Assembly (NCBI GenBank): GCA_036365455.1
Contig: JAWQUS010000026.1
Location: forward strand, 13,782,001 to 13,846,000
Direction: 5' to 3'
From: Macrosoma leucophasiata
Taxonomy: Eukaryota; Arthropoda; Insecta; Lepidoptera; Hedylidae
Length of the DNA stretch: 64,000 bases
Positions 24,225-48,756 of this stretch are shown here, in pieces. How positions within the stretch are numbered: position 1 is the first letter of the stretch; every line of letters begins with the position of its first letter. The notes below the pieces were generated by a model that saw only the letters and a list, made by a program, of their open reading frames with translations, did no database searches and had not been told where the DNA came from. A program made the translations under genes and the position numbers.

Positions 24225-24301
24225 ATGTCGTTTGCATTCGGCACGCCATCGAGTGCCCCGGCATCAACGGGTCTCAGTGGGTTCAGTTTTGGCGCTAACA
24301 A
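24225..24301 (+). CDS. Nup58: Nup58 exon 1
   Basis: Starts at ATG ([10 protein letters not shown]...) and ends at AACAA before donor GTAAGT. It has two leftover bases that join the first G of exon 2 to make Lys. Confidence 0.9.
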
Positions 24302-27300
24302 GTAAGTTTTTCTAATTCATTGTCAAAAAAACATTAAAACCTCCTTACCAAACCATAAGTCATTACGTAAAAAAGAAAAAGTGGAGAAGTGTTAAAAATT
24401 GTAACCTTTCTTACAAACTTGTCAATATTTCAACTTTATCACAGTGGTTATATTTGATTCAAAGGCAAGCGACGCCAGGTTTCGGACAGCCAGCAACGTC
24501 GCAGCCGTCAGGGTTGTTTGGAACGCCGGCATCATCGTCAACTTTTGGCACACCCTCATTCGGTGCTACGCCAGGCTTCGGGGCAACTTCTACTTCGACA
24601 TTTGGCGCACCGTTTGGGACTACCTCAACGGCTCCCACGTTCGGTTCGACACCTGCATTCGGAGCAACATCCACGGCTCCTGCATTTGGGGCCGCTGCTC
24701 CTGCGTTTGGTGCAACATCTGCAGCCCCCACATTTGGTACAACCTCCACTGCACCTGCATTTGGAACTACAGCGTTTGGTGCCACTAGCACTGCACCGTT
24801 TGGTAAGACTGATGAAATAACAATACAGTAGAATCCCCATTCATCCGTTTGTCTCATTTTGAATTGCCAAGTTTAAAAATGTTTTGTCACAACAAGACAT
24901 GTAGTCCCATCTCTTGACCCAATAATATTATAATACCATATTAAACTTTAATAACAAGTTATTTCCAATTAAATTTTTAAATAATAATGTCATTCATTTT
25001 TGTTAAAGCTGATAATTAATTATATCTTGTTATCTAAATGATGCATACCTACAAACAGGGCAGTCTTTAACTATGCTGGGGCCCTTGGGCACACAAGAAT
25101 TCGGGGCCCTTTTGGCTATGTAAAGAAAGCAACCTATTAATTTTTTTTTTCACTGTGATCTGCTTTCTTATGCACACAATACACACAATCACTCATGCAA
25201 ACATACACTCACATTCACATACCTACACACACACACACACACACACACGGATGGGGATGAGGATGGGGACCCTGGGCACTGGCCCCAAGTGCCCTTATGG
25301 TAGAGACGGCATTGCCTACAAAACCTATTTCATAATTAAAGTTGGTTATTATTAAAATGTTGTTTGATTTAGCTTTGAAATCAGTTATCCAGATAGGTTT
25401 ACTGGTGGTAGAGCTCCAGTGACGGAGCTCGCGGGCGTAGGCACCACCGCATTACCTAATATACTTGCCGCTAAATGGTAGTGTTCAGCACTACTGTTCT
25501 GGTCAGGTGGTAATGTACGGCTCTGTAATTTCCGGCACAGAAACATAACACCTTCAGTCTCAGGAGTGGTAACTCATCTGTATTTTGACCTTGGTCATTG
25601 TTTTTTTGTGTAATGGACGTGGTTAACAAGCATATAGTTCACATTGATGTTAAGTGATGACTGCAGCCTATAGACTAAGGTGTTATGCCTCTGTGCCGGA
25701 AATTACAGCGCCGTACATAGTTGTTAAAGCTATTGTCTGGTTAAGTCCATTAACAACAGGCCTGTTAAAAGAACACATTGCTTACTTCACATTTTAAGGG
25801 TTTCATTAGGAGCAAATTTATGCATCACTAAAGTACAAAACTAACTTTTACAAAAAGGAATAAGGAAAAACAATTAACAAATGTGTATTATCGGCAGGTG
25901 CAACAACAACACCGGCTTTTGGAGCTACCACTGCACCATCGTTTGGGGCTTTAGGCACTGGTGGTGGCCTTAGTTTTGGTACAGGCACCACTACATCCAC
26001 AGGTAAATAAGCTTAAAATATACCTTTTATTCTTTTTTTTTTTTTTTTCTGTAATGAAAGAGGCAAACAAGCGTGCAGTTCACATTGATGTTAAGTGATG
26101 ACTGCAGCCTATAGACACCCACACAATGACCAGAGGTCAAAATGCAAATGCGCTGCCACTCCTGAGGCATTAGGTGTTATGCCTCTGTGCCGGAAATTAC
26201 AGAGCCGTACATTACCACCTGACCGAAACACGATAGTGCTGAACACTACCATTTAACGGCAAGTATATTAGGTAATGCGGTGGTGCCTACGCCCGCGAGC
26301 TCCGTCAGTGGAGCTCTACCACCAGTATTCTATTCTATTTTCTCTTTATCATTATGGGCATTCTGAACCTGTAAATGTGAAAATAGACGTGTCCCCAACC
26401 CCTTGAGAACCATTTTGGAAGCCATGTATACTGAGGTTGCAGAGTGGGCAACTGTGTGTGTGTAAAAGCATGTCCTGATGGATGTCTGTGTAGTAGGTAA
26501 CCAGCATAAGCGTCTGTATCAATAACATTGATCTTGTTTTCTTCATTTATTATCATTGAAGGAATTGAAAAATTTTATGATTATTATGTTTTAACCAAAT
26601 AGATTAAATTTTAATTTTTAATTTACTATTAATATATGATTTTGCTTTTACTATATGTAATGGTTATTCGCTCTAGGTAGTTTATGATTTATTGACGTTT
26701 TGAAAGTATCTGTAAAGATCTATTCGAAATAAAAATATTTTCTATTTCTATGGAATTTAAGAAGAGGGTCCGCAGTGTGGTTACTTTTAAAATTGTTTAT
26801 GTTCCAGGTTTGTCTTTTGGTACAACTAGCACAACGAGTGCTGGGTTGGGCGGTCTTGGTGGTTTCGGTTTCGGTACCACTACGACAACAACAACCACTA
26901 CTGGTTTCGGTTTATTTGGTTCCACAAGCACTACTGCGTCGAGCGGGTTATTTGGTGAGTAATAGATTTTTATATTAATGATGCTCTAATAATTCTGACC
27001 TGCTTTAGTAGTCTTGTGGTGGTAGGTTACTATTGCTATGCTGGGGTCTTGGGTCCCGGTTTGGGGATATCAGGGATTAAGATATATTATCCTTTATTTC
27101 TTGTGCTATTTGGCTCTTCCCATGTTTCTGGAAGTTATCTAGTTTAATTAATGTGCCGGAAATGTCAATAGACTCTCCAGGTGTGCCAAATGGGCGAATG
27201 GGAAAATCACGAGTATTTGCATTTATGCTTGAATGCATTAATTCATCTCTTTTTTTTATTTCATGAAGGTGGCAAACAGGCATGCAGTTCACATTGATGT

Positions 27301-30300
27301 TAAGTGATGACTGCAGTCTATAGACCCACACAAAGACCATAGGTCAACATGCAGATGCGTTACCACTCCTGAGCCCTAAGGTGTTATGTCTCTGTGCCGG
27401 AAATTACAGGGCCGTACATTACCACCTGACCGGAACACGATAGTGCTGAACACTACCATTAGCACCATTTAGCGACAAGTATATTAGGTAATGCGGAGCC
27501 TACGCCCGCGAGGTCCGTCACTGGAGCTCTGCTACCAGTAAACCTAAACCTAACCTTATCCCATTTCCCTTCCAGTATCATGTTCCCCTACCCATTCCCA
27601 ACAACTCCCACGCAGATGTTTGAAATGTCTCCGAACATTAACACAAAAGGCTGTGGCACACATCCCAAGGAGGGGGCAGGATATGTCATTAAATGTGCTA
27701 CACGTGATGCCTATCCCACTATTACACCTAATATCGGTGAGACAATCACATTATTTTAGTAGAGTCATCTATGGGTTTTGATGTGTTCGGTGAATTCAAA
27801 AAATTATGCTAACACTCAAAGCCTAACTAGGTGTAAAACTGTGTCGTGGTTGCCGTTGTTCGCATACAAATATCTGTAGACTAACAAGCCCAGCCGCTTT
27901 ACCACTAAGCTGCCAAAGTCCCACACCGATGCGTCAAATTTTGCTTTCCCTTTTTTATTAAACCGATTTAGGGTCGGTGAATGACATCCATTGATAACTT
28001 ATTAATAGCTATACAATCCAATTTTACTGGTGGTAGAGCTCCAGTGACGGAGCTCGCGGGCGTAGGCACCACCGCATTACCTGATTTACTTGCCGCTAAA
28101 TGGTAGTGTTCAGCACTATCGTGTTCCGGTCAGGTGGTAATGTACGGCCCTGTAATTTCCGGCACAGAGGCATAACACCTTAGGCCTCAGAAGTGGTAAC
28201 GCATTTGCATTTTGACCTTGGTCTTTGTGTGGGTGTCTATAGGCTGCAGTCATCACTTAACATCAATGTGAACTGCATGCTTGTTTGCCACTTCAATTAC
28301 ATAAAATAAAAAAAAAATAAAAAAAAATCGCATATCGGTTGTATAGCTAATAATTAGATACTGATAGACTTTGCATCGTTAAGATGTCGCCGTGCCCTTA
28401 ATAATTGTAATATTTTATAATAATTGTAATATTTATTGAAAAGAAAAGGAAGGCAAAATTTTACGCATCGGTGTGGGACTTCGGTAGCTGAGTGGTAAAG
28501 GGGCTGGACTGGTTATCCTGAGGTCGCAGGTTGGATTCCTGCCCAAAGTCAAATCTTTCTTTCCATATCGATGGTCTAGAAGAGAGTTCGAGTCTCGCCT
28601 GAAGTCAAATTTTTCTTTCCATTTTTCTTTAAAAATAAAATATATTTCACAAGCATGTGTTAATGCGAAAATAATATAAAAAACAATTATTAAGGGTAAA
28701 AGCGACTTCTTTACGATATTCAATAAACTGAAAAGTCTATTATATCGGTTGCCTAACTAGCATAGTTGGTAATAGATGGCGCTACTGCTACCATAAAGCA
28801 ATGCAATAGATGTGAAGGAAAGATTTGACAAATCGGGCAGGGCTTCAGTAGCTCAATTGGAAGAGCGGCTGGACTAGATTCCCAGTAGGTCGCGAGTTCG
28901 AGTCTCGCCTGAAGTCAAATTTTTCTTTCCATTTTTCTTTAAAAATAAAATATATTTCACAAGCATGTGTTAATGCGAAAATAATATAAAAAACAAAAAC
29001 ATGCTAAGTACCTACAGACCTAATTTTTTTGGAGACAACAGTTTTTATTAATTCCAAACATTTAAAATTCATTTAAACTAGAAAATTCCAAACTTCTAAA
29101 TACTATAACTTAAACTGTACCTAGAAATTGTATATATACACAAGTAAAGTAAAGAAGTACTGTCCTCCCGAAAAGAATGTTGGTCTGTACTTAGCGTGTT
29201 TGTCTTCTAGACCATCGATATATTCTTTAATTTCTAAAGTTCACTCGCATGTGTTACTGCGAAAAATAAATAGTACAACTTATGAATGCTTACAAAAAGT
29301 CGGTGCATAATATTTATTTTGTATTACCAGGTACAACAACTCCGAGTCTCGGACTGGGGGGCGCGGCACCCGCCGGTGCGAACACTACTACTACCGACAG
29401 TAAAAGTAGTAAGTTACTTCAAAATTCTACTCTCACTTTAAAACACAAACTAATCCGTTCATCGAAAAATATTGTTTTTTTTTTATGTAATATAATGTAC
29501 AGTGGTAAACAAGCATGCAGTTCACATTGATGTTAAGTGATGACTGCAGCCTATAGACATCCAAACAAAGACCAAGGTCAAAATGCAGATGCGTTACCAC
29601 TCCTGAGGCCTAAGGTGTTATGCCTCTGTGCCGGAAATTACAGGGCCGTACAGTTCAGAAAATCACAATACTTTTTAAAACCTTTTCAACGATCCCACAT
29701 GATGGGATGCGCGAGAATAAAAAAACCTTTAATTTTTATCAAAATTTAATTATGCTACTTTTAAACCGAATTGTTGCTTTCTAGTATTAAAAGTCTAAGC
29801 AAAGCTGCAGACAGATGCCATATCTGACCATCGACAGATGTGGCAACCAACTAATTTAGTATAATATCCAATCCTCAATCTTTCACATCCATAATTTCAG
29901 GCATGAATAAGAATATTCTCTCATTACAGGTGAACCACCGAAGCAGACGAAGTTGCCAAATGAGATATCAACTACGATGGACTCGTTCAAGGAATTCGTC
30001 AAAAAGCAGAAATCTTTAAGTTCGGACGTGATGCGTGTGTCCATCGTGAAACCTCTACACAAGGTACGTTTTCGCCAATTGCTAACTTGAAAGTTTTATG
30101 AAATACTAGCTGTTGCTTGCGGATTCGCCCGCGCGGATGTCGTTTAAAAAGTAAACCTATGTACTTTCTCAAAGTCAACTCTATCTCTGTACCAAATTTC
30201 ATTAAAATCGGTTTAGTCGTTTAGACGTGAAAAGGTAACAGACAGACAGACAGACATATTAGTAGGGATGTTTTAAAACTTGTGAAATATATTATTACTA

Positions 30301-33300
30301 GCGCCCCGCACCAGCTTCGCACGGGTTCAATTTAAGGAGTTAGCTCCTTGAGGCTGCCTGTCCATTGACGCGGAGCGAGGCGGCGGAGATGGGCGAGCGA
30401 GTATTGCGGGGCGGACTTGCGGACTCTGTCTGTCCATTGACGCGGAGCGAGGCGGCGGAGATGGGCGAGCGAGTATTGCGGGGCGGACTTGCGGACTCTG
30501 TCTGTCCATTGACGCGGAGCGCGACAGCGTTGCGGAGCCAGCGAGTATGCCGAGTGAACTCGCGGCACACCGCGGACATTCCGCCAAAATTCCACACAAA
30601 CGCTTAATTTGGTCTCTATTATACAGACATCAATCAGTGACGTGTATTTACACGTGCACCTGTGTGTGTAGCACGTAGTGAATATCAAACGTCGCCCATA
30701 AGAGGGGAGGAGGTTGGGTGAAGCGGGGAAAGCGGGCGGGATGTCGAAGTGTCCATAGTAGCACCGTAAATAGATACAAACAGTATCTAACCGCCGTTTG
30801 ATTCGAAGGGTCGCGGGTTCGATCCCCGCACCGGAACAAATATTTGTATGGCCTACAGATATTTGTTTCGGGTCTGGGTGTTTGTGTCTGTGTTGTATGT
30901 GTACAACGGCACCCACGACACAGGTTTAATATTTTTTACATACATAAGTAGTTATAAAAAAAACAAACGTATACTATAAGAAATTAAAAAAAGGTGCGCC
31001 GCCGGCAGCGGGAACAGGGTCCAAGCTATCGGTGGTTAGGGTCACGGAGACAGGAACCTCCTCACTATACGTGCCGTGCCGAGGAGTACCGCCTTCTGTA
31101 TTTGACCCATGATCCCACCTTGATCTTATTATTATTATAGTTTTAAGTACGACACAGTTTAATTTTGATATAACTTGTAGATCTTTTTTTTGTTGTTTTG
31201 TCTTAAAAATAACAAAACAGTGCTAATTACTTGGGTGTTTTTATAGTTCTGACGACAGTACAATCTGTGGAATACTCCAACGAGTTGTCGAGACCGGGCG
31301 AGTTTCTCTTCCCCTCACCCACTCGGGTAGGCAGGATAATAAATAGCTACCCCGACAAACTTCGTATCGCCTTAGAGGTATAAACAAATTAACTGTCCAA
31401 AATCGAAAAAAAAAATGGTGAGAATCACCCTTACCATTTAGGGATATATAAAAAGACTACAACCGTTTCTCATACACACAAAATTTCATAATGACCGGTC
31501 TAGCCGCTGCGGAGGAGTATTATTACAAACACTGTCACACGCGATTTTTTTAAATATGTTAGATATTATAACAATACATCATTCTTGCCCTTCAAAATCA
31601 CCAGGAATTTTAAAAAACGATAGCTCCGGTTTTGATGATGCAGAGATCAAACAGTCGTATACCACGCAATACGCTCGTGGCATCTTTAAAACACTCTTGG
31701 ATATAAAAACAAATCGCAACGTGACCGCTCGTCTCGACGCGACACTCGCTACTATAGCACTGCGAGAACCGCTTAGAGGCCTCGTAGATGCGCATGTTTG
31801 TGTGAGTGTGCCGTTTTGAACGCTTTGTATGTAGTTACTTTACTGTTTACAATCTATTTACTGTGATAGTAGTATTATTACAATAATATTCTCTATATAT
31901 AATATCTCTAATATTATGTAGAGGGCAAACGACCTCGGGGCCGATCTTCTACCAGATGGACTGACCAAGTCACCAAACTCACTGGCCATGAAGAGGACCG
32001 TAGCCACCAAGACACTTCAGGACAGGCATGACTTTTAGTAATGAAGAGTGCGGCATTGATGATGATGATTTAAATTGCAGGTGGGACGCGAAGCCGACAG
32101 CACGCTGCGCGCGGCGCTGGCCCTGAGCGCGGACACGGGCAGGGCTCGGGCCCAGTCGCGCCGCCTGCGGGCCGCCGCCGCCGCCGCGCTCGCCGCCGCC
32201 GAGACCGCCGCCAGGGACCCGCCCGGTGGGTACTGCTGTAGGAGGCCGGTCACCGGTCGCAGGTGGGCGCCGGCCCTGGGCGCGGACACGGGCAGGGCTC
32301 GGGCCCAGTCGCGCCGCCTGCGGGCCGCCGCCGCCGCCGCGCTCGCCGCCGCCGAGACCGCCGCCAGGGACCCGCCCGGTGGGTACTGCTGTAGGAGGCC
32401 GGTCACCGGTCGCAGGTGGGCGCCGGCCCTGGGCGCGGACACGGGCAGGGCTCGGGCCCAGTCGCGCCGCCTGCGGGCCGCCGCCGCCGCCGCGCTCGCC
32501 GCCGCCGAGACCGCCGCCAGGGACCCGCCCGGTGGGTACTGCTGTAGGAGGCCGGTCACCGGTCGCAGGTGGGCGCCGGCCCTGGGCGCGGACACGGGCA
32601 GGGCTCGGGCCCAGTCGCGCCGCCTGCGGGCCGCCGCCGCCGCCGCGCTCGCCGCCGCCGAGACCGCCGCCAGGGACCCGCCCGGTGGGTACTGCTGTAG
32701 GAGGCCGGTCGCCGGCCCTGGGCGCGGACACGGGCAGGGCTCGGGCCCAGTCGCGCCGCCTGCGGGCCGCCGCCGCCGCCGCGCTCGCCGCCGCCGAGAC
32801 CGCCGCCAGGGACCCGCCCGGTGGGTACTGCTGTAGGAGGCCGGTCGCCGGTCGCAGGTGGGCGCCGGCCCTGGGCGCGGACACGGGCAGGGCTCGGGCC
32901 CAGTCGCGCCGCCTGCGGGCCGCCGCCGCCGCCGCGCTCGCCGCCGCCGAGACCGCCGCCAGGGACCCGCCCGGTGGGTACTGCTGTAGGAGGCCGGTCA
33001 CCGGTCGCAGGTGGGCGCCGGCCCTGGGCGCGGACACGGGCAGGGCTCGGGCCCAGTCGCGCCGCCTGCGGGCCGCCGCCGCCGCCGCGCTCGCCGCCGC
33101 CGAGACCGCCGCCAGGGACCCGCCCGGTGGGTACTGCTGTAGGAGGCCGGTCGCCGGCCCTGGGCGCGGACACGGGCAGGGCTCGGGCCCAGTCGCGCCG
33201 CCTGCGGGCCGCCGCCGCCGCCGCCGAGACCGCCGCCAGGGACCCGCCCGGTGGGTACTGCTGTAGGAGGCCGGTCGCCGGTCGCAGGTGGGCGCCGGCC

Positions 33301-36300
33301 CTGGGCGCGGACACGGGCAGGGCTCGGGCCCAGTCGCGCCGCCTGCGGGCCGCCGCCGAGACCGCCGCCAGGGACCCGCCCGGTGGGTACTGCTGTAGGA
33401 GGCCGGTCACCGGTCGCAGGTGGGCGCCGGCCCTGGGCGCGGACACGGGCAGGGCTCGGGCCCAGTCGCGCCGCCTGCGGGCCGCCGCCGCGCTCGCCGC
33501 CGCTGAGACCGCCGCCAGGGACCCGCCCGGTGGGTACTGCTGTAGGAGGCCGGTCACCGGTCGCAGGTGGGCGCCGGCCCTGGGCGCGGACATGGGCAGG
33601 GCTCGGGCCCAGTCGCGCCGCCTGCGGGCCGCCGCCGCCGCCGCGCTCGCCGCCGCTGAGACCGCCGCCAGGGACCCGCCCGGTGGGTACTGCTGTAGGA
33701 GGCCGGTCACCGGTCGCAGGTGGGCGCCGGCCCTGGGCGCGGACCCGGGCAGGGCTCGGGCCCAGTCGCGCCGCCTGCGGGCCGCCGCCGCCGCCGCGCT
33801 CGCCGCCGCCGAGACCGCCGCCAGGGACCCGCCCGGTGGGTACTGCTGTAGGAGGCCGGTCACCGGTCGCAGGTGGGCGCCGGCCCTGGGCGCGGACACG
33901 GGCAGGGCTCGGGCCCAGTCGCGCCGCCTGCGGGCCGCCGCCGCCGCCGCGCTCGCCGCCGCCGAGACCGCCGCCAGGGACCCGCCCGGTGGGTACTGCT
34001 GTAGGAGGCCGGTCACCGGTCGCAGGTGGGCGCCGGCCCTGGGCGCGGACACGGGCAGGGCTCGGGCCCAGTCGCGCCGCCTGCGGGCCGCCGCCGCCGC
34101 CGCGCTCGCCGCCGCTGAGACCGCCGCCAGGGACCCGCCCGGTGGGTACTGCTGTAGGAGGCCGGTCGCCGGCCCTGGGCGCGGACACAGGCAGGGCTCG
34201 GGCCCAGTCGCGCCGCCTGAGGGCCGCCGCCGCCGCCGCCGAGACCGCCGCCAGGGACCCGCCCGGTGGGTACTGCTGTAGGAGGCCGGTCGCCGGCCCT
34301 GGGCGCGGACACGGGCAGGGCTCGGGCCCAGTCGCGCCGCCTGCGGGCCGCCGCCGCCGCCGCGCTCGCCGCCGCCGAGACCGCCGCCAGGGACCCGCCC
34401 GGTGGGTACTGCTGTAGGAGGCCGGTCGCCGGCCCTGGGCGCGGACACGGGCAGGGCTCGGGCCCAGTCGCGCTGCCTGCGGGCCGCCGCCGCCGCCGCG
34501 CTCGCCGCCGCTGAGACCGCCGCCAGGGACCCGCCCGGTGGGTACTGCTGTAGGAGGCCGGTCACCGGTCGCAGGTGGGCGCCGGCCCTGGGCGCGGACA
34601 CGGGCAGGGCTCGGGCCCAGTCGCGCCGCCTGCGGGCCGCCGCCGCCGCCGCGCTCGCCGCCGCTGAGACCGCCGCCAGGGACCCGCCCGGTGGGTACTG
34701 CTGTAGGAGGCCGGTCACCGGTCGCAGGTGGGCGCCGGCCCTGGGCGCGGACACGGGCAGGGCTCGGGCCCAGTCGCGCCGCCTGCGGGCCGCCGCCGCC
34801 GCCGCGCTCGCCGCCGCCGAGACCGCCGCCAGGGACCCGCCCGGTGGGTACTGCTGTAGGAGGCCGGTCACCGGTCGCAGGTGGGCGCCGGCCCTGGGCG
34901 CGGACACGGGCAGGGCTCGGGCCCAGTCGCGCCGCCTGCGGGCCGCCGCCGCCGCCGCGCTCGCCGCCGCCGCGCTCGCCGCCGCCGAGACCGCCGCCAG
35001 GGACCCGCCCGGTGGGTACTGCTGTAGGAGGCCGGTCACCGGTCGCAGGTGGGCGCCGGCCCTGGGCGCGGACACGGGCAGGGCTCGGGCCCAGTCGCGC
35101 CGCCTGCGGGCCGCCGCCGCCGCCGCGCTCGCCGCCGCCGAGACCGCCGCCAGGGACCCGCCCGATGGGTACATCCTACCTCATTAGTTCTATAGTTCTA
35201 GTAATAATAATGGAGACCGTCGACACGTCCCACTGCTGGGTGAGAGTCTCCCCTTCTCGGAGGGAGGCCTGGAGCTTACTCCACTATGCTGCTCCGATGC
35301 GGGTCGGTGGAGATAAGGGTTAGTGGCCAACCCGCTGTCGGATGTTTTCAAACCGGCCCATAAGGCCTCCGACAAGGTTTAACGTTTGCAATTTATCGAT
35401 AGCGACCGGGACCGAAGGCTTTACGTGCCCTCGGAAGCACGGAAACACGCGCATTTTAATTTGCCACACACCCGATCACGCCCGTATCGCTTAACCGAGT
35501 AGATCGTTTCCGATCTACGCCAGCCCGCGGAGCTATGCGCGCTATCGCGAAATTTGTTCAATAGGGTACAAATTTGAAAAAAAAATGTTTATTTTTTTAA
35601 ATTACGAAGTCGAAAGTAATACCAAAATGAAAAGTATAGATTAAAAACTTTAATTTAGATATTTATTTGTTATCATACAAGAATAGATTACGTTATCTCA
35701 GAGTTAAATTTAATTTAATTAATAAAAATATAAATCATTCAATTTATATTTAATTCATTCAATTGTAATATAAAATAGAGTGCTCTCTCCCGCAACCTAA
35801 CTGTTGAAGTTTACTCGACTGCCTCTCGAGGGGGGGTGATGGGTGAGGCGGGGAAATCGCACAAGACGTCGAAGTGTCAATTCTATACGTAGTATAATTA
35901 GATATTCTCTGTTACAGGTTCGGAGTTAGAAGGCTCCATCCCACCGGCGTACGTGAAGGAGCTGATCGCGGAGCTGGAGCAGCAGCTCGTCACGTTCCGG
36001 AGGCAGATGGACGTGGCCGACAAGCAGATGCAGTCTTCCCCGAAACTTCTCACTGAGCAGGGTATGTCTGTATTGAAATTATACAAGTATTTTATCTAGT
36101 GAGTCATCATCATTTCAACCCTAAACTTATGTTGTTAGACAAAGCCTTCCCGAAAGACGCCCATACCAGTATTTTGCATCATTAGGAGAATATGCCATAA
36201 TCCCCACGCTTCGCAAAGTGATCTAAAATCACGAAACATTACATGGGGGAGGGGTGAATGTATGGAGGCATCACGAGTATTTATTTCTTTTTTTTTATGT

Positions 36301-39300
36301 AATGGAAGTGGTAAACAAGCATGCAGTTCACGTTGATGTTAAGTGATGACTGCAGCCTATAGACACCCACACAAAGACCAAGGTCAAAATGCAGATGCGT
36401 TACCACTCCTGAGGCCTAAGGTGTTATGCCTCTGTGCCGGAAATTACATTACCACCTGACCGGAACACGATAGTTCTGAACACTACCATTTAGCGGCAAG
36501 TATATTAGTTAATGCGGTGGTGCCTACGACCGCGAGCTCAGTCACTGGAGTTCTACCACTGGTAAAAAATCACGTGTATTTATTTCTTCTTTGAGCGCCC
36601 TACCAGAGAATATGTAATTATACTATGTATAGAATGGACACTTCGACGTCCTGCCCAATTTCCCCGCCTCACCCAACCTCCTCCCCTCTTATGGGCGACG
36701 TTTGGTATTCTCTACGTGCTACGCACACAGGTGCACGTGTAAATACACGTCACTGATTGATGTCTATGTAATGGACCAAATTAAGCGTTTGTATGGAATT
36801 TTGGCGAAGTGTCCGCGTTGTGGCCCTACTACGCTGTGATCCTGGGTTCGATTCCCGGTTCGGGTACTACCAGAAATAACAGTCTAAAATCCTTTATCTC
36901 TAGTTCTATTGGGATTTTTCCATTTTCATAGTTTGTTGATGTGTCCGCAGATGTGAACAGGCTCGCCACCTATTATAGTCGTTACAGGGGCCAAAACGTA
37001 ACAGAGGAATCGAAGGTGTTTGCATGTATACTTAAATGCATGTCATTTATCTGTGCCCACCCCTTCGGAGAGTACAAACGTGGAGTTAGAGAGTTCTTAT
37101 AACGTAAACGTACCTTCACGCCTGTAATCCTCGAAGGGGTAGGCAGAGGTAAATGCATTCATAAAATTATACGTGCAATCAATCTTCCTGGTGGTAGAAT
37201 TCCAGTGACGGAACTCGCGGGCGTAGGCACCACCGCATTACCTAAAATACTTGCCGCTAAATGGTAGTGTTCAGCACTATCGTGTTCCCCTCAGGTGGTA
37301 ATGTACGGCCCTGTAATTTCCGGCACAGAGGCATAACACCTTAAGCCTCAGGAGTGGTAACGCATCTGCATTTTGACCTTGGTCCTTGTGTGGGTGTCTA
37401 TAGGCTGAAGTCATCACTTAACATCAATGTGAACTGCATGCTTGCTTACAACTTCTGTACGGGCTAATGCACCGCACATTAGTTAGATCAGCATTTTACA
37501 CCTTACGCCTCATTTCAACACACTTATTTTATTATTATATTCTGTTCGCATTAGGTAATCAAGTTCGCCGCGCGTTCTCACATTTTATTCATATCAGTAT
37601 CAGTTAGTTATTTTTGGACAGTTTTTAATATACAAGTTTTTATCAGTTTATCAGATTTTTATTTATCAGTAACTCTTTGGGGTCTAACCCAAACAACTTC
37701 CATTATAAAAAAAAAACACCCTCGATTTGCGTATAACGTTCTCTTATAAAGGGGAAATGAGACATTCTACTGATATACTTTTTACATTAGTATATTATAT
37801 TTAGTTTTATTTTAGAGATATTCTTGACTATACATATATTTTTTTTATATTGTTTGACATGTATATCAATTGTTATTCACTTTAATTTATTATTAGGTTG
37901 GGGAAAAAGTTTCTTCGTATTTTTTAAGATATTTCAAAACATTTTTTAATATAGTTTATTTAAATTTAACTAAAGTATGTATGTACCATTTTGTTCGATA
38001 ACCTTTTGCCATCTTGTAGGTAGGGACATTATCCCATTGCTATAAAAATTTTGGGACTTCTCATCAAAATACCGCGACAAGTGGATTTGGCAGTCCTCTC
38101 GTGATGTTAACCTAACATTGCATAAAGAATTCTGAAGAGACCGAAACAGGTGGAAATCTGAAGGTGCAAGGTCAGGACTATACGGCGAATGCATTAACAC
38201 CTCCCAGCCAAACTCTCTTAATTTTTGCTGAGTGGCTATAGATGTGTGAGGTCTAGCGTTATCATGATGAAACACCACACCCCTTCTGTTGATCAATTCC
38301 GGCCGCTTTCTCTCAACTTCTTGCTTTAATCTCATCAGTTGTTCGCAGTACAGTTCAGAATCGATAGTCCTGCCTGGTGGTAATAGCTCATAATGAATAA
38401 TACCCTTCCAATCCCACCACACACACAACATCACCTTATTGCGAGTTAACCCGGGTTTCGCCACAGTCTGTGAAGCCTGACCGGCCTTTGACCACGATCT
38501 TTTTCGCACGTTCTTGTCATACGTGATCCACTTTTCATCACCAGTTATCAGCTTCTTTCATTCGGTTTCATTACGTCGTAATGAGTACACGGTTCATTAG
38601 GTTTCTTTCAGTGAGCTCGTGAGGTACCCAAATATCGAGCTTTTTTTTGTACCCAGCTTTTTTCAAATGCGCCAAAACTGTTTTGTGATCAATTCTCAGT
38701 TCTTCAGCTACGTCGTAACTACTGATATGTCGATCTTGCTCCACTTTTTCAAAAATGGCATCCATTTTAACCGTAATAGGGCGACCAGAGCGAGGTGCAT
38801 CTTTGACATCAAAATTTCCGGATTGAAAACGCTTAAACCAAATTTGTGCTACTCTCACAGACACTAGGTCCATAAACATCGCAAATTTTTTTCGCTGCTT
38901 GCGTTGCATTTTTACCTTTTTTGTAGTAAAATTTTAAAATGCATCGAATTTCTTCATTAGATTCACATCTTGACAGTACGAAAAACAAATGAAAATCACA
39001 CATTTGCCTAATTTGAATTTGGAATTATGTTCTTTAAAATTTTAACTTTCAATGATACCAAAACCAGCCAGATACAAATACTACAGCCAAAGAGATTTTA
39101 TTACAAGTTCATACATACTATAATGCGAAAAGACTTTTTCCCCAACCTATTATGTTTGTTTTTGACGTGTCATAAGAGGTGCCTGTCACCCTAAATGAAT
39201 AAATGAGTTTCTGATTCTGATTATAATTGTTTCAGAACTGACCCTGGGCATCCGTCGCATGCACGAGTCCCTCGTGGCGTTGGCCGGACGTCTGCAAGCG

Positions 39301-42300
39301 GTGCACACGCAGGTCGAGGCGCAGAAGGAACAGTACCTCAATCTGCGCAAATACATACTCAAGGACCCCACCAACGTGTTCGATAGTATATCGCGTGAGT
39401 ATCTTAATATTTGTATATATTTTTATGTCTCTCGTCACCACGGGGTCCAATTTGAACTTTGAACTTATGATTACTGGCACCGACTTAAAACCTATGAGTA
39501 GGTAGGTACGTAGCCCAAGTAAGTGTTTAATGTTTGTAAGATTATAATAAATAGGTTATGTGTTATTTCCTTGAAATGAAAGTATCAAGTTGATTTAAAA
39601 AAAAAATGCAAAGAAAAATTTGACTTCAGGCGAGACTCGAACTCGCGGCCTACTGGGAATCTAGTCCAGCCGCTCTTCCAATTGAGCTACTGAAGTCCTG
39701 CCCGATTTGTCAAATCTTTCCTTCACATTTATTGCATTGCTTTATGGTAGCAGTTTTTTTTAATATTATTTCGCATTAACACATGCTTGTGAAATATTTT
39801 TTAAAGAAATACCTGCTACCATAAAGCAATGCAATAACTTGGACTTGTCGCAGTATTTCTAATCGCCCCAAAAGAAGTATAATTTTGAAAAATCGTGACG
39901 GATATTACGGGCTGTCCTTAAAATGCGCCACGCTAAAACAAGCCTTTTCTGACCTATTGTCACGCAGCGTCACATAATATGACAGTTTTTTAAATGTTCT
40001 AACGAAATATTAAATTACATTTTTTTTATGAACTCTTCATGAAGCGCGCATGTCCTTGCGACTGGTGTAGATTGGAAGCGATCTACTCGGTTAAGCGATA
40101 GGGGCGCGGTCGGGTGTGTGATGGGTGACTGCTAGTGGCAAATTAAAATGCGCGTTTCCGTGCTTCGAAAAGCACGTTAAACCGTGGATCCCGGTTGCTA
40201 CCGATAGATAGCAGTCGTTAAACCTTATTGGAGGCCTTATGGGTGGTTTGAAAACATCCGACAGCGGGTTGGTCACTAACCCTTATCTCCACTAACCCAC
40301 ATTGGAGCAGCGTGATGGAGTAAGCTCCAGACCTCCCAAGAAGGGGAAAGACTCGTGCCGCGCAGTGGTACGTATCAAGGATTGCCATTATAATTATTAT
40401 TTTATTGAACTGCGAACGTCACGATGCCGTGGACCCCCGTTCCTTCCTATCACATTTTATCACTCTGTGCGAAACTCCTTCCCGCCTTGTATGCGAACGA
40501 ATTTACGGACGGCCCCCTACGGGTGTGTATAGCTTGAACGTATACTTATGTGATGTTTTGTTTTCGCCTACAGCCAGCACCAGTTTAGACCAAATCCTGC
40601 GCGACGCCGAGGGTTCGAGGAAGAAGTCTAAAACCGGCAACATCTCTGATTTCGGCCTTAGTAGCGCAGTGCTCTCTGATCCCAGAGCCGCTTTAGGTAT
40701 ACATTTTTTATTTTATGCTATGAAATAGGCTTAGGCTTTAAGCGATTACCACTTAAAGCCTATTTATTTCTGTTCAACATTTTATGTGCTTATTATTAAC
40801 TGATATTTCATTTTAGATAGTAATGTACAGTGCTCAACAATAAATATTGCACATCGAACCTAGGCAGGAGACTTCGGCTTATTGCGGGTCTGTAGAGCGT
40901 TATCTCTTTCGCATCGTATCTATTTGTCGTTTGTCGACCATTTTGATCAAGTTATGACCAATACCGGACTGTCCGTGCTTACATTGGCAATGTGCCTAAT
41001 TTTACTGGTGGTAGAGCTCCAGTGACGGAGCTCGCGGGCGTAGGCACCACCGCATTACCTAATATACTTGCCGCTAAATGGTAGTGTTCAGCACTATCGT
41101 GTTCCGGTCAGGTGTTAATGTACGGCCCTGTAATTTCCGGCACAGAGGCATAACACCCTTAGGCCTCAGGAGTGGTAACGCATCTGCATTTTGACCTTGG
41201 TCTTTGTGTGGGTGTCTTTAGGCTGCAGTCATCACTTAACATCAATGTGAACTGCATGCTTGTTTGCCACTTCCATTACATAAAAAAAAAAAAAAAAAAA
41301 ATGTGCAGCAGAGATAACGCTCTACGAAGTCGAAACGAGCCGATCGTCTCTTTCGCGGGCTCGATGTGCAATATTAATTGTTGAGTACTGTACCATGTAT
41401 TTGTTATTTATTTTAAAAGTGATAATTTCACTGTAATACATATTCCTAAAATATAACTAAGTTTCAATTCTATAACGAACTATGGTAAAATCGTTTTACC
41501 ACAGGCTGGTACACAGCACATGTAATTATGTTTGACATTTTGACATTTAACAATGTGAACGTAATTTACTGTGTTGTCAAATGCATGGTAGTGTGTGTAA
41601 TGGTTTTATAGATACATGGTATTGTGTGTAGTGTTTTATTTATTGATCTAATGTACTTTATTAGCACTATTATTGAAAATATTAGCGTTCTGCATTTTGT
41701 CTTTATATAAACTATAAATTTGCCAAATTTCATACTCCTCCGTAAGCTGTCTGGTTTTGACTGGTGTTAGAGCTCCAGTGACGGAGATCGCGGACGTAGG
41801 CACTACCGCATTACCTAATATACTTGCCGCTAAATGGTAGTGTTCAGCACTATCGTGTTCCGGTCAGGTGGTAATGTACGGCCCTGTAATTTCCGGCACA
41901 GAGACATAACACCTTAGCCCTCAGGAGTGGTAACGCATCTACATTTTGCCTTTGGTCTTTGTGTTGTCTATAGGCTGCAGTCATAACTCACCATCAATGT
42001 GAACTGCAAGCTTGTTTATCACTTCCATTACATAAAAAAAACTCAATTTTCGTAAATTGGGTCTAAGTATATGCTTTAATATTATGATATATTGTTGTTT
42101 ATAGGTAATATTCAACAGTTGGCGGGACCAACACCATTTACGTACCTCGGCGGACTGTCACCATATGGTGTTCCTGATGCTTCTGGTAGGTATCCTTTTA
42201 ATCTGTGTTATTGTAATTTTGTATGTATTTTTTTATTTTTATATTGAAGATTAGCTGTGCCCGCGACTTCGCCCGCGTGAGAATTTTTAATTGCTCAGTT

Positions 42301-43336
42301 TCTACTCGGACGAAGTCGTGGGCGCAGCTAGTATTAAAGTAGCCTTAGATACTCCTTATTACATCAGCTATTTGCCAGTGAAAGTCGGTCCAGCCGTTCC
42401 CAAGATAAGTCCCGCCAAACAGACAGACAGACAGACAAAAATTGTAAAAAATGTTGTTTTGGTATATGCATCGTGTATACATATGCATTTAGTAAAAGGC
42501 GGTTATTTTTATGTTACAAACAGACACTCCAATTTTATTTATTTGTATAGATGTAAGAAAGAGGCTTTTTGTGAATAGAGAGTATTGGTGTAAGAATGAA
42601 AAAAGGTATAAGAGAATGATGATTGAAGAAAAGAAGTACAGGGGATGTCAGGACCGGGATATCTGGTAAACCTACCCCGTAAGAGACTTGACATACATAC
42701 ATATTATTTAAGAATATTTTGTTTTCAATATATTGAATTTGACGACCCGGTTAGTCCAGCGGTGTGAGACGACCGTTTGATTCAAAGGGTCGCGGGTTCG
42801 ATCCTCGCACCGGGACATATATTTGTATGGCCTACAGATATTTGTTTCGGGTCTGGGTGTTTGTGTATGTGTGTACAACGGCACCCACGACACAGGTTTA
42901 TACATAGTGTGGGACTGTGAGTGTAAGCGTATTTTATTTATGTTTTTATTTCACTTATTATCGGAGGGTAATCATTACTCAGACAGTTTTTTTCACGTTG
43001 AAATAAAACTATTATATTATATATACGAAATATAAATATTATATTATTATTTATATAAATATAAATATTATATTTCGTATATTAAACTAAATTATTATTT
43101 GAAATCGAACCTGACGTTTCGGTCGCTTTTCAGCTTCCGTGGTCTAAAAATCGTAAATCCGAAAACTAGTTTTTTTTTCACGTTCCTAAATTCACCCTAT
43201 AACGGTTTCAGGTTCGAACTGGCACCCGCAGCCACAACCGGTCAACCCGTCACTGAACTTAAGCGGGTTCGCACCGACCAGCGAGACGTCAACCTTCCAG
43301 CTGCAGAAACCGCCTGGAAAACGGGGCAAACAATGA
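24225..43336 (+). CDS. Nup58: Nucleoporin Nup58 (Nup58/p45), complete gene in 12 exons
   Basis: FG-nucleoporin of the Nup62-Nup58-Nup54 complex, lining the central channel of the nuclear pore and carrying transport receptors. Exons: 24225-24301, 24465-24802, 25898-26002, 26808-26954, 29331-29408, 29930-30063, 32081-32225, 35918-36061, 39236-39394, 40574-40696, 42105-42185, 43212-43336. All junctions are GT/AG, phases agree throughout, and the sum is 1,656 bp (551 codons plus TGA). Residues 1 to about 245 are Thr/Ala/Gly-rich with many FG dipeptides. The middle carries the coiled-coil signatures of the family, for example [23 protein letters not shown] and LRKYILKD, which line up with human Nup58. 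The C-terminus [13 protein letters not shown] resembles the human end. Human Nup58 is about 600 residues, so the length fits. The start is the first ATG of exon 1, followed at once by FAFGTP. Odd point: exon 7 is followed by a 21-copy array of itself, so its true splice pattern is uncertain. Recognition is from family knowledge; no search was run. Confidence 0.93.
24465..24802 (+). CDS. Nup58: Nup58 exon 2, main FG-repeat exon
   Basis: Acceptor TTCAAAG and donor GTAAGA. It encodes about 112 residues built of short Ala/Thr/Pro-Ser spacers between FG dipeptides (FGQP, LFGTP, FGATS and similar), the binding sites for importin-type receptors. An antisense open frame across the same bases is a by-product of composition. 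Confidence 0.93.
24861..25395. other. Nup58 intron 2 sequence with (CA)n
   Basis: (ACAC)n at 25225-25248 within CAT/CAC-rich DNA; GGGGCCCTTGGGCAC at 25079 is unassigned. Confidence 0.5.
25399..25606 (+). mobile_element. SINE-A, 3'-truncated, head-to-head with a reverse copy
   Basis: TACTGGTGGTAGAGC to ACCTTGGTCATTG, immediately followed by a reverse SINE-A. Confidence 0.87.
25600..25722 (-). mobile_element. SINE-A reverse, truncated
   Basis: TTTTTTTGTGTAATGGACGT to CCGGAAATTACAGCGCCGTA. Confidence 0.85.
25898..26002 (+). CDS. Nup58: Nup58 exon 3, FG repeats
   Basis: Acceptor TCGGCAG, donor GTAAAT. Phase 1 on both sides. It continues the FG region (AFGATT, SFGALG, SFGTGT). Confidence 0.9.
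26030..26325 (-). mobile_element. SINE-A, full length, Nup58 intron 3
   Basis: T20 tail to GAGCTCTACCACCAGTA. Confidence 0.9.
26519..26755 (+). mobile_element. Retroposon 3' end (family I), copy in Nup58 intron 3
   Basis: Nearly the same as 51965-52216; ends GAAATAAAAATATTTTC and (TTTCTA)n just 50 bases before exon 4. Confidence 0.75.
26808..26954 (+). CDS. Nup58: Nup58 exon 4, FG repeats
   Basis: Acceptor GTTCCAG, donor GTGAGT. Gly/Thr-rich with SFG, GFGFG, GLFG and a run of Thr. Phase 1 both sides, so exons 3 and 4 could each be skipped without shifting the frame. Confidence 0.9.
27000..27245 (+). mobile_element. SINE-D, old
   Basis: TAGTAGTCTTGTGGTGGTAGG (tRNA-like head), ATGCTGGGGTCTTGGGTCCC, and GCATTTATGCTTGAATGC at the far end. 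Confidence 0.6.
27246..27540 (-). mobile_element. SINE-A, full length, Nup58 intron 4
   Basis: TTTTTTTATTTCATGAAGGT to GAGCTCTGCTACCAGTA; contains a small local duplication (CCATTAGCACCATTTAGC). Confidence 0.9.
27820..27950 (-). mobile_element. SINE-E and SINE-T fragments
   Basis: CCTAACTAGGTGTAAAAC..TGTCGTGG (SINE-E body) then CCAGCCGCTTTACCACTAAG (tRNA-like head of SINE-T, reverse). Confidence 0.55.
28024..28330 (+). mobile_element. SINE-A, full length, Nup58 intron 4
   Basis: TTTTACTGGTGGTAGAGC to an A-rich tail at 28302-28328. Confidence 0.92.
28490..29000 (+). mobile_element. SINE-T composite: three tRNA-like heads in a row
   Basis: Heads at 28490-28553 (CTTCGGTAGCTGAGTGGTAA), 28585-28605 (partial) and 28842-28917 (CAGTAGCTCAATTGGAAGAG..GCGAGTTCGAGTCTCGC). 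The last two are each followed by the same AAATTTTTCTTTCCATTTTT tail. Acceptor and T stems pair; the anticodon arm is irregular. Confidence 0.78.
29331..29408 (+). CDS. Nup58: Nup58 exon 5, linker after the FG region
   Basis: Acceptor GTATTACCAG, donor GTAAGT. It encodes a short Gly/Ala/Thr-rich linker ending in DSKSS that leads into the coiled coil. Confidence 0.88.
29478..29652 (-). mobile_element. SINE-A, truncated, Nup58 intron 5
   Basis: TTTTTTTTATGTAATATAAT to GAAATTACAGGGCCGTAC. Confidence 0.88.
29930..30063 (+). CDS. Nup58: Nup58 exon 6, start of the coiled-coil domain
   Basis: Acceptor TCATTACAG, donor GTACGT. It includes [19 protein letters not shown], matching the first helix of the family coiled coil. 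It ends in phase 0 after Lys. Confidence 0.92.
30100..30275 (+). mobile_element. LINE tail (family L), Nup58 intron 6
   Basis: CTAGCTGTTGCTTGCGGATT, GCCCGCGCGG, AAATCGGTTTAGTCGTTTAG and (CAGA)n at 30238-30256. Confidence 0.75.
30359..30530 (+). repeat. 72 bp GC-rich tandem repeat, about 2.3 units
   Basis: Units start at 30359, 30431 and 30503 (TGTCCATTGACGCGGAGCG). The third diverges after 30521. Confidence 0.93.
30785..30935 (+). mobile_element. SINE-E, head partly lost
   Basis: GATTCGAAGGGTCGCGGGTT, GGCCTACAGATATTTGTTTC, ACGGCACCCACGACACAGG. Confidence 0.75.
30940..31915. other. Nup58 intron 6 remainder, no gene assigned
   Basis: An open stretch at 31604-31819 could encode about 70 residues ([20 protein letters not shown] and on). 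I do not recognise it and Nup58 phases do not need it. It could be a relic exon from another gene. Confidence 0.35.
31916..32070 (+). mobile_element. 3' fragment of an RTE-like LINE
   Basis: Encodes a remnant [18 protein letters not shown], the basic R-P-R-G-R...R-W-x-D motif found near the end of RTE-type reverse transcriptases. It then runs into a (GAT)n tail at 32056-32069. It lies directly upstream of the Nup58 exon 7 acceptor. Confidence 0.65.
32081..32225 (+). CDS. Nup58: Nup58 exon 7, first copy of the amplified exon
   Basis: Acceptor AAATTGCAG follows the tail of an RTE-like insertion. The 48-codon exon ([13 protein letters not shown]...) is an Arg/Ala-rich helix at the place where human Nup58 has its corresponding helix segment. 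The donor here is GTGGGT. The 3' part of this exon and its donor are repeated about 20 more times downstream, so the donor actually used could lie in any copy. The sum of phases works with this first copy alone. Confidence 0.75.
32103..35170 (+). repeat. 21-copy tandem array of Nup58 exon 7 with its splice borders
   Basis: GC-rich minisatellite counted by the marker GCGCGGACAC (21 occurrences, first near 32128, last near 35067; one copy reads CATGGG and one CCCGGG after it). Full units are 153 bp (51 codons); others are shortened, for example by 17 bp where the spacer jumps from GGTC to GCCGGCCC, or by changes in a GCC run. Each unit has an acceptor-like CAG|GTGGGCG, a ~100 bp exon piece and a donor-like G|GTGGGT, with a spacer of only 37 bases. 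Copies 1-4 stay in one open frame. The final copy has GATGGGT in place of GGTGGGT, so its donor is lost. Very long open frames on both strands here are products of the stop-poor GC composition. Confidence 0.95.
35203..35545 (+). mobile_element. Repeat B directly after the exon array
   Basis: AATAATAATGGAGACCGTCG, CTCCACTATGCTGCTCCGAT, AAGGCCTCCGACAAGG, CGAGTAGATCGTTTCCGATC. Confidence 0.85.
35918..36061 (+). CDS. Nup58: Nup58 exon 8, coiled coil
   Basis: Acceptor CTGTTACAG, donor GTATGT. It encodes [20 protein letters not shown] and on to SSPKLLTEQ, a clear match to the segment of human Nup58 around YFRILVQQFEVQLQQY. Phase 1 on both sides. Confidence 0.93.
36125..36225 (+). mobile_element. 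RTE-like tail fragment (family C)
   Basis: GTTAGACAAAGCCTTCCCGA, GACGCCCATACC, GCCATAATCCCCACGCTTCG. Confidence 0.6.
36290..36562 (-). mobile_element. SINE-A, Nup58 intron 8
   Basis: TTTTTTTTATGTAATGGAAG to GAGTTCTACCACTGGTAA; lacks a few bases after GAAATTACA. Confidence 0.9.
36820..37165 (+). mobile_element. SINE-D, near complete with tRNA-like head
   Basis: Head CCTACTACGCTGTGATCCTG and GGTTCGATTCCCGGTTCGGG, body TCTAGTTCTATTGGGATTTT, GATGTGAACAGGCTCGCC, end CACCCCTTCGGAGAG. Confidence 0.72.
37187..37456 (+). mobile_element. SINE-A, Nup58 intron 8
   Basis: CCTGGTGGTAGAATTCCAGT to GCATGCTTGCTTACAACTTC; no A tail. Confidence 0.88.
37893..39150 (-). mobile_element. mariner-family DNA transposon, 1,258 bp
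   Basis: Terminal inverted repeats TAGGTTGGGGAAAAAGT (left) and ACTTTTTCCCCAACCTA (right) with TA duplications at 37891-37892 and 39151-39152. It encodes a mariner transposase on the minus strand. The length is typical of the family. Confidence 0.92.
37970..38909 (-). pseudogene. mariner transposase, broken
   Basis: Cut-and-paste transposase. The N-terminal part has helix-turn-helix-like [20 protein letters not shown] and SGRPI. The catalytic part has [14 protein letters not shown] and [12 protein letters not shown], carrying the three Asp of a D,D34D enzyme. A frame shift and a TGA between about 38550 and 38585 separate the two halves, so it is not active. Confidence 0.88.
39236..39394 (+). 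CDS. Nup58: Nup58 exon 9, coiled coil
   Basis: Acceptor TTGTTTCAG lies only about 13 bases after the end of a LINE tail. It encodes [20 protein letters not shown] and [15 protein letters not shown], the best-conserved block of the protein. Donor GTGAGT. Confidence 0.94.
39610..39835 (-). mobile_element. SINE-T copy, Nup58 intron 9
   Basis: Reverse tRNA-like head (GGCGAGACTCGAACTCGCGG, TGAGCTACTGAAG) whose acceptor stem pairs fully, flanked by the family tail and CATTGCTTTATGGTAGCAG. Confidence 0.72.
40034..40395 (-). mobile_element. Repeat B, Nup58 intron 9
   Basis: TGAAGCGCGCATGTCC, AAGCGATCTACTCGGTTAAG to GATTGCCATTATAATTATTA, full length with the (ATT)-like tail. Confidence 0.87.
40574..40696 (+). 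CDS. Nup58: Nup58 exon 10, end of structured region
   Basis: Acceptor CGCCTACAG, donor GTATAC. It encodes a charged linker with [17 protein letters not shown] followed by a Ser/Leu-rich stretch. Phase fits both neighbours. Confidence 0.9.
40828..41390. mobile_element. MITE-F with a SINE-A inserted
   Basis: Ends CAGTGCTCAACAAT and ATTGTTGAGTACTG extend to 33 bp inverted repeats flanked by TA (40826-40827 and 41391-41392), as for Tc1/mariner-type MITEs. The SINE-A at 41003-41300 interrupts it. Confidence 0.88.
41003..41300 (+). mobile_element. SINE-A inside MITE-F
   Basis: Complete copy with an A20 tail. AATGTGC occurs just before (40989-40995) and just after (41301-41307) as the target duplication. 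Confidence 0.9.
41757..42045 (+). mobile_element. SINE-A, Nup58 intron 10
   Basis: GACTGGTGTTAGAGCTCCAG to CCATTACATAAAAAAAA, about 60 bp before exon 11. Confidence 0.9.
42105..42185 (+). CDS. Nup58: Nup58 exon 11, C-terminal linker
   Basis: Acceptor TTTATAG, donor GTAGGT. It encodes [19 protein letters not shown], similar in character to the GPTPFS block in human Nup58. Confidence 0.88.
42250..42445 (+). mobile_element. LINE tail (family L), Nup58 intron 11
   Basis: TAGCTGTGCCCGCGACTTCG, GAAAGTCGGTCCAGCCGTTC and (CAGA)n at 42419-42438. The left edge is doubled in inverted form (CGGACGAAGTCGTGGGCGCA). Confidence 0.75.
42743..42950 (+). mobile_element. SINE-E, complete
   Basis: tRNA-like head with A box (GGTTAGTCCAGCGG) and B box (GGGTTCGATCCTCGC), body GGCCTACAGATATTTG, end GTGGGACTGTGAGTGTAAGC. 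Confidence 0.82.
43076..43145 (+). repeat. Solo Penelope-type arm in last Nup58 intron
   Basis: Matches the arms at 60257-60324 and 61391-61458, including GACGTTTCGGTCGC and the neighbouring CTTCCGTGGTCT. It follows an AT-rich inverted repeat at 43020-43080. Confidence 0.75.
43212..43336 (+). CDS. Nup58: Nup58 exon 12, C-terminus and stop
   Basis: Acceptor GGTTTCAG. It encodes [10 protein letters not shown]... and ends [13 protein letters not shown] then TGA, resembling the basic end of human Nup58. No AATAAA is seen in the ~70 bases before the next repeat; the first AATAAA noticed is near 44370. Confidence 0.92.
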
Positions 43337-47126: not shown

Positions 47127-48175
47127 TTAAATTCTTATCTTACGTTCTAATGCTTTCTTTTTTTCCTCTTCGTCCATATTTCTATTTATTAAAACACAAT
47201 ATCTTTTAATTATAATAAAAAATGTACTTACTTTAATATGAGTTTCATTTATTTCATAATGTAGAGTACATTTTCTCAAAAAATCAAAATCTACACATTC
47301 TAACAAATTAAATATGTTGATTTTCAACTCCTTTTTATGTGCATTTTTGTTTAATGAAGTATTTATGAGGCTGGCCATCATTTCTACACACGTCACCATA
47401 TCTTTAGATACATAATAAATTCTGAGCAGGGTCATAGTCCTTAAAACTTGTGAACATGTGTATGGTTTCTTGTGTATTTGATAGGAATGCCTTTCAACAA
47501 TCAAGGCAGTTACTGTTCCTCAATTTTTTATATATAAAACCACACACATATGCACAAGCTTGACTCTCAGACGTCCCCTGGTCCACTGCTTCAACTGCAT
47601 CCGATAATATGCTCTCCATTGCTCCCAACTCGCATTGAAAAGTTGGTTCATTAATGTTTGTAGGAGAAATGTTTGCTGTCAAAAACTTTGTTAAATTATT
47701 TGAAATCATAGCTTGGTCATCTTCACAATTTTTTTTTGCCCTGCATGTTTTAGGTTGGAAATTATGGCAGTTTTGATGCCAGCTATAAATTGATTAACGG
47801 TTGGATTGTTATTGGATCCACAGCTATATCGGATGCAGCCAAAACAATTTTCTAGTGGATCTTGGTTGAGGCCACGTGTGGAAAGACTCTTAATGCCTAT
47901 AGCCTGTAAATTTTTCCACAATCTTTCTATAGCGTTCATGGTGTGAATCCATCCTTCTTGAGACGGAGGATTAGATTTACTCCCTACATATTTCATATTT
48001 TGTATAAATTTCCTCATTTCCTTGAATAAAGTTAAATGGGGAGTCTTTTTAGTTATATTGGTGGAATATCTCTTTCCTCTTCGCAAATCTTTACTATCGG
48101 CATTAACGGCATCAAATAGTTCGTCGAATTTCTGCACGAACGTTGCCATTGCATGAGCTTCTGCTGGTAGTTCAT
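47127..48175 (-). pseudogene. Copy 1 exon 8, C-terminal transposase region, broken
   Basis: Runs ELPAEAHAMATFVQKFDELF through NQDPLENCFGCIRYSCG in one frame, shifts in an A-run near 47735, continues as MISNNLTKFLTANIS to SNCLD, meets TGA near 47494, and resumes shifted to the final TAA at 47127. The C-terminal cysteine cluster of copy 2 is largely missing. Confidence 0.75.
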
Positions 48176-48756
48176 CTGAAAAATAAAATATTTAATATTG
48201 TTATCGGCGTGCATATATGAAGAGAATGATGCAGGTAGAAGAAGCACGAGAGGTATGTCAGGATCGGAATATCTGGCGCTCCACACTCTCTGCCTTCCCC
48301 GTAAGGGACCTGGCGTGAAGATATATACATATTTACATTACATAGTAATATTTAAAAAAATCTTTTTAATTCTTAATTCAGATTGCAATACTGAAATGTA
48401 AATGTTTGTCTTTCCCAAAGGTTAGGATAACTTAGTTGAGCAAATAGTGTCAGTCAAAAAACAGAATTATACACTTTTTTGACTAGCTATTGCATGAGAT
48501 ATAGTAGATACGTTGACACCCCTGAGTTCTTAGTTATTAGGTTTCTGTGATAGTTATTACAGGGCCATACATTACATACCAATCTTCAAATTACAAATAA
48601 TACTGTTACAATTTATATTACATGTTACTACAACATTTTCACTCGTAACAACGTCAAGATATGGATATAGACCCTCTATATCCATATCTTGACGTTATAT
48701 CTTATATATATATATCTTTGTTTTTCAAATTATCTAAATTCGATATTTATATAATA

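Follow-up and report, generated by a model that had tools for sequence, protein, structure and literature searches.

How is a 5′ splice site chosen when the end of a coding exon, together with its donor, has been copied many times over into the intron that follows? The question is raised by the gene for the pore protein Nup58 in the lepidopteran Macrosoma leucophasiata, in a window of 64,000 nucleotides (bases 13,782,001-13,846,000 of contig 26; the assembly comprises 616 Mb in 61 contigs). Exon 7 of this gene is followed by an array of near-identical copies of its own 3′ end. As read from the assembled DNA, the array is an intronic minisatellite derived from the end of a coding exon with its donor, and it is both real and unusual. 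We consider it probable that it grew from the exon 7 3′ end plus the 5′ splice site, and that the spliceosome mostly uses the first donor, that of exon 7 itself. The locus offers a natural setting in which to ask how the spliceosome settles on one among 20 identical donors, and how an essential gene copes with the conversion of an exon end into a minisatellite.

The Nup58 gene and the array in its seventh intron

The gene model and the features discussed here are given in Table 1. Residues 4-441 of the model protein match the Pfam family PF15967 (Nucleoporin_FG2) with 112.7 bits, solved Nup58 chains are matched with an E value of 1.2e-20, and the protein carries the FG-repeat and coiled-coil regions of the Nup58 family and ends in KRGKQ, as do its relatives. 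Lepidopteran Nup58 proteins are up to 90% identical to it over the 193 aa searched, and a protein tree with 42 rows places it among butterfly rows, although not within any well-supported set. By these matches the gene is Nup58 of the lepidopteran type, and the assignments made in an earlier, sequence-only reading of this DNA (Nup58, exon 7 and the nature of the repeated unit) are borne out by PF15967, the solved chains and the lepidopteran relatives. The homologue set used below contained 79 proteins, drawn from 7,995 scored candidates sharing most words; the other protein searches scored about 8,000 candidates each. In the alignment, the exon 6 product shows an extra Val that is absent at that column from the other 79 rows.

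The repeated unit consists of the last ~113 bp of exon 7, the donor and a short spacer. The exon 7 donor with its preceding exon bases occurs 21 times in tandem, the first intron bases running from 32226 to 35165, in agreement with the 21 copies counted earlier; the span given by Tandem Repeats Finder is 32113-35172. The 20 copy-to-copy intervals are 153 bp in 12 cases, 136 bp in three, 124 bp in two, and 132, 147 and 168 bp once each. Thus, a period of 153 bp, or exactly 51 codons, as originally described, applies to 12 of the intervals, but in five of the 20 (those of 136 or 124 bp) the frame moves by +1. Likewise, the 37-base spacer with an acceptor-like end was recovered in 15 of the 20 units, all of which have CAG|GT at the unit border, whereas in copies 5, 8, 15, 16 and 17 a 17-bp spacer deletion removes the acceptor-like CAG.

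The units are head to tail and near-identical, and they overlap both a coding exon and an intron, as expected of an exon-derived minisatellite. Copy 2 is identical to exon 7 over its last 99 nt (32127-32225), with two mismatches over the last 113, and copies 2-21 depart from their own consensus at 12 substitutions in 2,939 bases. Copies 6 and 9, each of which follows a deleted copy, have one base in common, which would fit an exchange between deleted and full-length units.

For comparison with the rest of the genome, 200 kb of control DNA was sampled from contigs 1-10, in 20 stretches whose positions were fixed. The mean GC content of its 1-kb windows (n = 380) was 38% and the maximum 56%, against 83% for the array, and none of 59 control tandem-repeat rows had a period of at least 30 bp together with a GC content of at least 65%. 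When the array was searched against the genome, only two weak matches of 55 bits were found outside it, and in the assembly it is present at one locus only. A source of the spacer elsewhere in the genome was also considered and was rejected on exact matches: the 29-bp spacer has 13 of them in the genome, all inside the array (near matches were not sought). Two long frames are open across the array on the minus strand, one of 874 aa (32556-35180) and the other of 725 aa (32998-35175); we take them to reflect the scarcity of stops in a GC-rich repeat.

Table 1. Features of the Nup58 locus, in window coordinates
Feature	Position	Strand	Description
Nup58 gene model	24225..43336	+	12 coding exons, 551 aa; from relatives' proteins by tblastn plus splice-site inspection, PF15967
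Exons 1-4	24225-24301, 24465-24802, 25898-26002, 26808-26954	+	
Exons 5-8	29331-29408, 29930-30063, 32081-32225, 35918-36061	+	
Exons 9-12	39236-39394, 40574-40696, 42105-42185, 43212-43336	+	
Exon 7	32081..32225	+	145 nt, phase 0 in, phase 1 out
Donor 1	32226..32231	+	CCG|GTGGGT; 551 aa; the donor expected to be used
Array inside intron 7	32226..35164	+	copies 2-21, spacer plus exon 7 3′ end; 2,939 bp, 83% GC
Donors 2, 3 and 4	32379, 32532, 32685 (span 32379..32690)	+	only array donors that keep the exon 8 frame
Donors 5-20	32821..35017	+	premature stop from every one
Copy 21 donor position	35165..35170	+	ATGGGT in place of GTGGGT; dead
Dispersed repeat	35199..35543	+	~345 bp, begins 34 bp past the array; of 7,601 first-look genome candidates, 40 places were scored
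Exon 8	35918..36061	+	first genuine exon after exon 7; every donor is paired with its acceptor (joined on paper)

Splice outcomes and the choice of donor

To describe the possible products, each array donor was joined to exon 8 on paper. Joined through donor 1, exons 7 and 8 give a protein that is collinear with vertebrate Nup58. Joining through donors 2, 3 and 4 gives 602, 653 and 704 aa, that is, 51, 102 and 153 additional residues followed by the normal C-terminus. The resulting exon 7 would be 145 nt long with donor 1, and 298, 451, 604 and 740 nt long with donors 2 to 5. The open frame that continues from exon 7 ends at 32836, closing at copy 5; the array does not lie in one open frame, as that of a coding variable number tandem repeat (VNTR) would, and at most three extra copies could be encoded by read-through. 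The proposal that read-through adds many copies of the 51-residue segment is therefore mostly excluded on paper, with only donors 2-4 in frame.

Splice sites were scored with a small matrix made from the gene's other ten introns, whose sites therefore score themselves. The array donors score 5.7 bits, the same as the exon 7 donor (5.3-10.7 bits for the other ten real donors), and donors 2-4 equal donor 1 at all nine scored bases. The acceptor-like sites of the array score 4.6-5.4 bits, compared with 7.4 bits for exon 7 and 10.0-18.1 bits for the other ten real acceptors, and the 17 bases before their CAG contain two T residues versus seven in exon 7. Because these sites score below all real acceptors, the array copies are probably not taken as exons. 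Cassette or mutually exclusive exons would each have a good acceptor and would keep the frame when included. Here, the 15 of 20 copies that have the CAG fall below all 11 real acceptors and the other five have none, and the 15 pseudo-exons that can be drawn in the array (116 nt in 12 cases, the others 95, 110 and 131 nt) are never divisible by three. The 37-nt stretch from donor to acceptor-like site is unlikely to be spliced on its own; over half of Drosophila introns are described as 40-80 nt long (PMC5762160).

How could such an array arise and leave the gene working? A tandem duplication over the exon-intron border would have placed copies of the exon end and its donor in intron 7, and unequal exchange would then have raised their number to 21 and held them close to one another in sequence. 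The order, near-identity and mosaic structure of the units are what can be seen directly, and this process is a reconstruction from them. Copy 21 adjoins the unique intron flank, and if the array grew by tandem duplication, its donor would therefore once have been the working one; as its GT has been lost, the gene would now rely on the donor of another copy. Because exon 7 sits between introns of 2,017 and 3,692 bp, its acceptor would be expected to pair, across the exon, with the donor at a distance of 145 nt, the nearest one, and since exon definition favours the donor closest to that acceptor, the decoy donors would be bypassed. Under such a scheme donor 1 would dominate, although some leakage to donor 2 is possible. 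Leakage to donors 2-4 would add 51-residue segments, and transcripts made through donors 5-20 would carry premature stops and would presumably be removed by nonsense-mediated decay (NMD).

Use of a single donor, with the others ignored, had been one of the two outcomes envisaged from the sequence. It fits best with the collinearity to vertebrate Nup58 and with the single exon-7 segment present in 77 of the 79 homologous rows, including a single-copy model (P0052) from Choristoneura fumiferana; donor use itself is predicted. In human cells, where near-equal donors lie between long introns, the upstream one has been described as favoured, and it was the only one used in five minigenes whose donors were identical (PMC9225289).

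Several points weigh against the use of donor 1. The same human study describes a preference for the downstream donor in most unfiltered events, and skipping of the exon in larger constructs when the donors were weakened (PMC9225289), and the exon-definition rule is carried over here by analogy from human cells to an insect. The exon 7 donor is weak, and 86 of 1,153 GT sites in the gene (the array donors included) reach its 5.7 bits. The exon 7 acceptor is weak as well, with 7 pyrimidines in 17 bases versus 8 in 17 for the array sites, and 47 of 963 AG sites in the gene reach 5.4 bits. Finally, RNA folding gave no sign that decoy donors are hidden in the one unit and one donor region tested. 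Both were less stable than the average shuffle (z = 1.70 for the unit and 1.05 for the donor region), and masking of the decoys by RNA structure was rejected. The array is most likely tolerated rather than used.

Relatives and the composition of exon 7

Only one of the 79 homologues, P0050 (MSG28_009365) of C. fumiferana, has more than one exon-7 segment, namely three; P0079 does not cover the segment. No extra-copy Nup58 beyond P0050 was found with a 704-aa query (candidates of about 387-1,232 aa, 60 matches) or with an array-only query (three matches), in a protein survey that is blind to arrays lying wholly inside introns. Two other candidates were rejected as multi-copy proteins: P0080 (Pararge) contains a single segment, and P0081 is an open reading frame (ORF) that surrounds one exon 7.

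C. fumiferana is represented by two gene models, P0050 with three copies and P0052 with one, which lie on contigs of equal length; outside the copies, they differ in a single stretch before exon 5. There, P0050 has an extra ~60 residues that are missing from P0052, and a similar-looking stretch is seen in P0055 (Spodoptera frugiperda). Over GVCRGRC...ARDALG, copies 1 and 3 of P0050 do not differ. In copy 2 the frame changes: the DNA for ALAHAETCARDALG is readable in the +1 frame as exactly RSRTRRPAPGTRS, the peptide observed, and none of 20,000 shuffled versions of that peptide can be read in this way. By back-translation, the 12 residues that follow in copy 2 would fit a donor of the form GTGAGT followed by an (AC)n spacer. 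It appears, then, that the same part of the exon and its donor have been repeated in a tortricid, and as the spacer differs from that of the window array, an independent event is suggested. The Choristoneura repeat is read from one gene model, not from DNA, and the single-copy P0052 of the same species calls for caution.

What might predispose this exon to repetition? In the repeated part of exon 7, the mean fraction of Gly, Ala, Arg and Pro is 0.58 (0.38-0.70) in 60 rows taken as lepidopteran (P0001-P0062 minus P0050 and P0055, with isoforms and five unnamed rows included) and 0.27 (0.17-0.35) in the 16 rows treated as other insects (P0063-P0078, including two unnamed ones). The corresponding values for the two neighbouring parts are 0.17 versus 0.21 and 0.22 versus 0.16. 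At the DNA level, exon 7 is 84% GC, and 94% at third positions, and the other 11 exons are 45-60% GC; third-position GC is also high in exon 8 (83%) and exon 9 (77%). Butterflies have been the subject of work on GC-biased gene conversion (PMC8175052), and we infer that biased conversion may have enriched the exon 7 segment and seeded the repeats. Given the Choristoneura model, exon 7 may be a recurrent hot spot. A broader scenario would be a lepidopteran hot spot in which: biased conversion produces the GC-rich segment; donor-bearing minisatellites arise from it repeatedly, in the window species and in Choristoneura; and the arrays exchange with the exon, so that intronic DNA and the coil of this essential pore protein would evolve in concert. 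We regard this scenario as tentative and rather doubtful as a whole. If the Choristoneura hint holds true at the DNA level, the exon would offer a repeatable case in which to study how local GC enrichment seeds minisatellites in coding DNA.

Alternative functions and known systems

Could the array instead be coding? Donors 2-4 might be chosen at an appreciable rate, and the resulting isoforms would carry between one and three additional Arg/Ala segments of 51 residues, placed after exon 7 at the PPG hinge that precedes the next helix. The identity of these donors to donor 1 in the scored bases and the preserved frame speak for this, as do the extra copies annotated in P0050 and the insertion point, which by its sequence follows a helix-breaking PPG that may act as a hinge. 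However, homologues with a single copy prevail, each insert includes 15 spacer-coded residues that do not belong to the conserved coil, the exon grows with every step (to 298-604 nt), and P0050 is only a gene model with its second copy out of frame. We therefore consider a coding expansion unlikely. A regulatory brake, in which decoy donors divert transcripts to premature stops and NMD lowers the Nup58 output, perhaps in a copy-number-dependent manner, seems a little less likely again: 16 of the 21 donors (5-20) are intact and each gives a stop upstream of the last junction, but there is no sign of selection, as the copies are homogenised and the frame-shifting units resemble repeat-mediated deletions. 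That the array is an assembly artefact, with fewer copies in the animal than were assembled, is very improbable, since the region is indeed GC-rich and repetitive but lies in a contiguous assembly, with unique flanks, six interval lengths and private substitutions, and a comparable smaller expansion is found in the gene model P0050 of another species.

Tolerated copies downstream of a working first donor, as we prefer to read the array, can be set beside several known systems. Dscam contains tandem arrays of duplicated, mutually exclusive alternative exons. The window array is likewise made of tandem copies of one coding exon, but these are near-identical, lack good acceptors and would mostly shift the frame (116 nt). 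MUC1 is a coding VNTR. As in the window array, its tandem units derive from coding sequence and their main length is divisible by three; here, however, the frame closes at copy 5, and a working donor precedes the array. The closest known kind is that of minisatellites at exon-intron borders, such as the variable internal tandem repeats described in human segmental-duplication genes (De Grassi and Ciccarelli 2009, PMC2812944), which also overlap the border and are either kept in the exon or spliced out. As described there, the human units average 30 bp, with 4 repeats and 160 bp in total, compared with 153 bp, 21 copies and 3 kb here. What is new in Nup58 is the size, the 20 intact donors (that of exon 7 included) and the hint of recurrence in the exon. 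Introns can also be gained when a coding segment that bears AGGT is tandemly duplicated, as described for example in the potato RdRp gene (PMC4974935). Coding sequence and splice signals are there likewise duplicated in tandem, and the CAG|GT border of 15 of the 20 copies recalls it; in Nup58, an existing intron has been enlarged and no new intron position has been created. No report of a Nup58 array was found in the literature searched, with most subscription papers lying outside that search. Whatever its history, the array carries a warning that gene predictors may put false Arg/Ala copies into Nup58 models.

Other repeats and mobile elements occur in and near the gene. A second GC-rich tandem repeat lies in intron 6 (30354-30521; 72 bp × 2.3, 67% GC). 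On the minus strand of intron 8 (37970-38933), a mariner-like transposase is represented by two ORFs with a Transposase_1 match of 93.6 bits, and an HTH_Tnp_Tc3_2 match below the cutoff falls in the same region. Farther on, also on the minus strand, an ORF at 47706-48191 carries a TNP-like RNase H C-terminal domain (43.1 bits) and, going by the family name, would be a transposon remnant.

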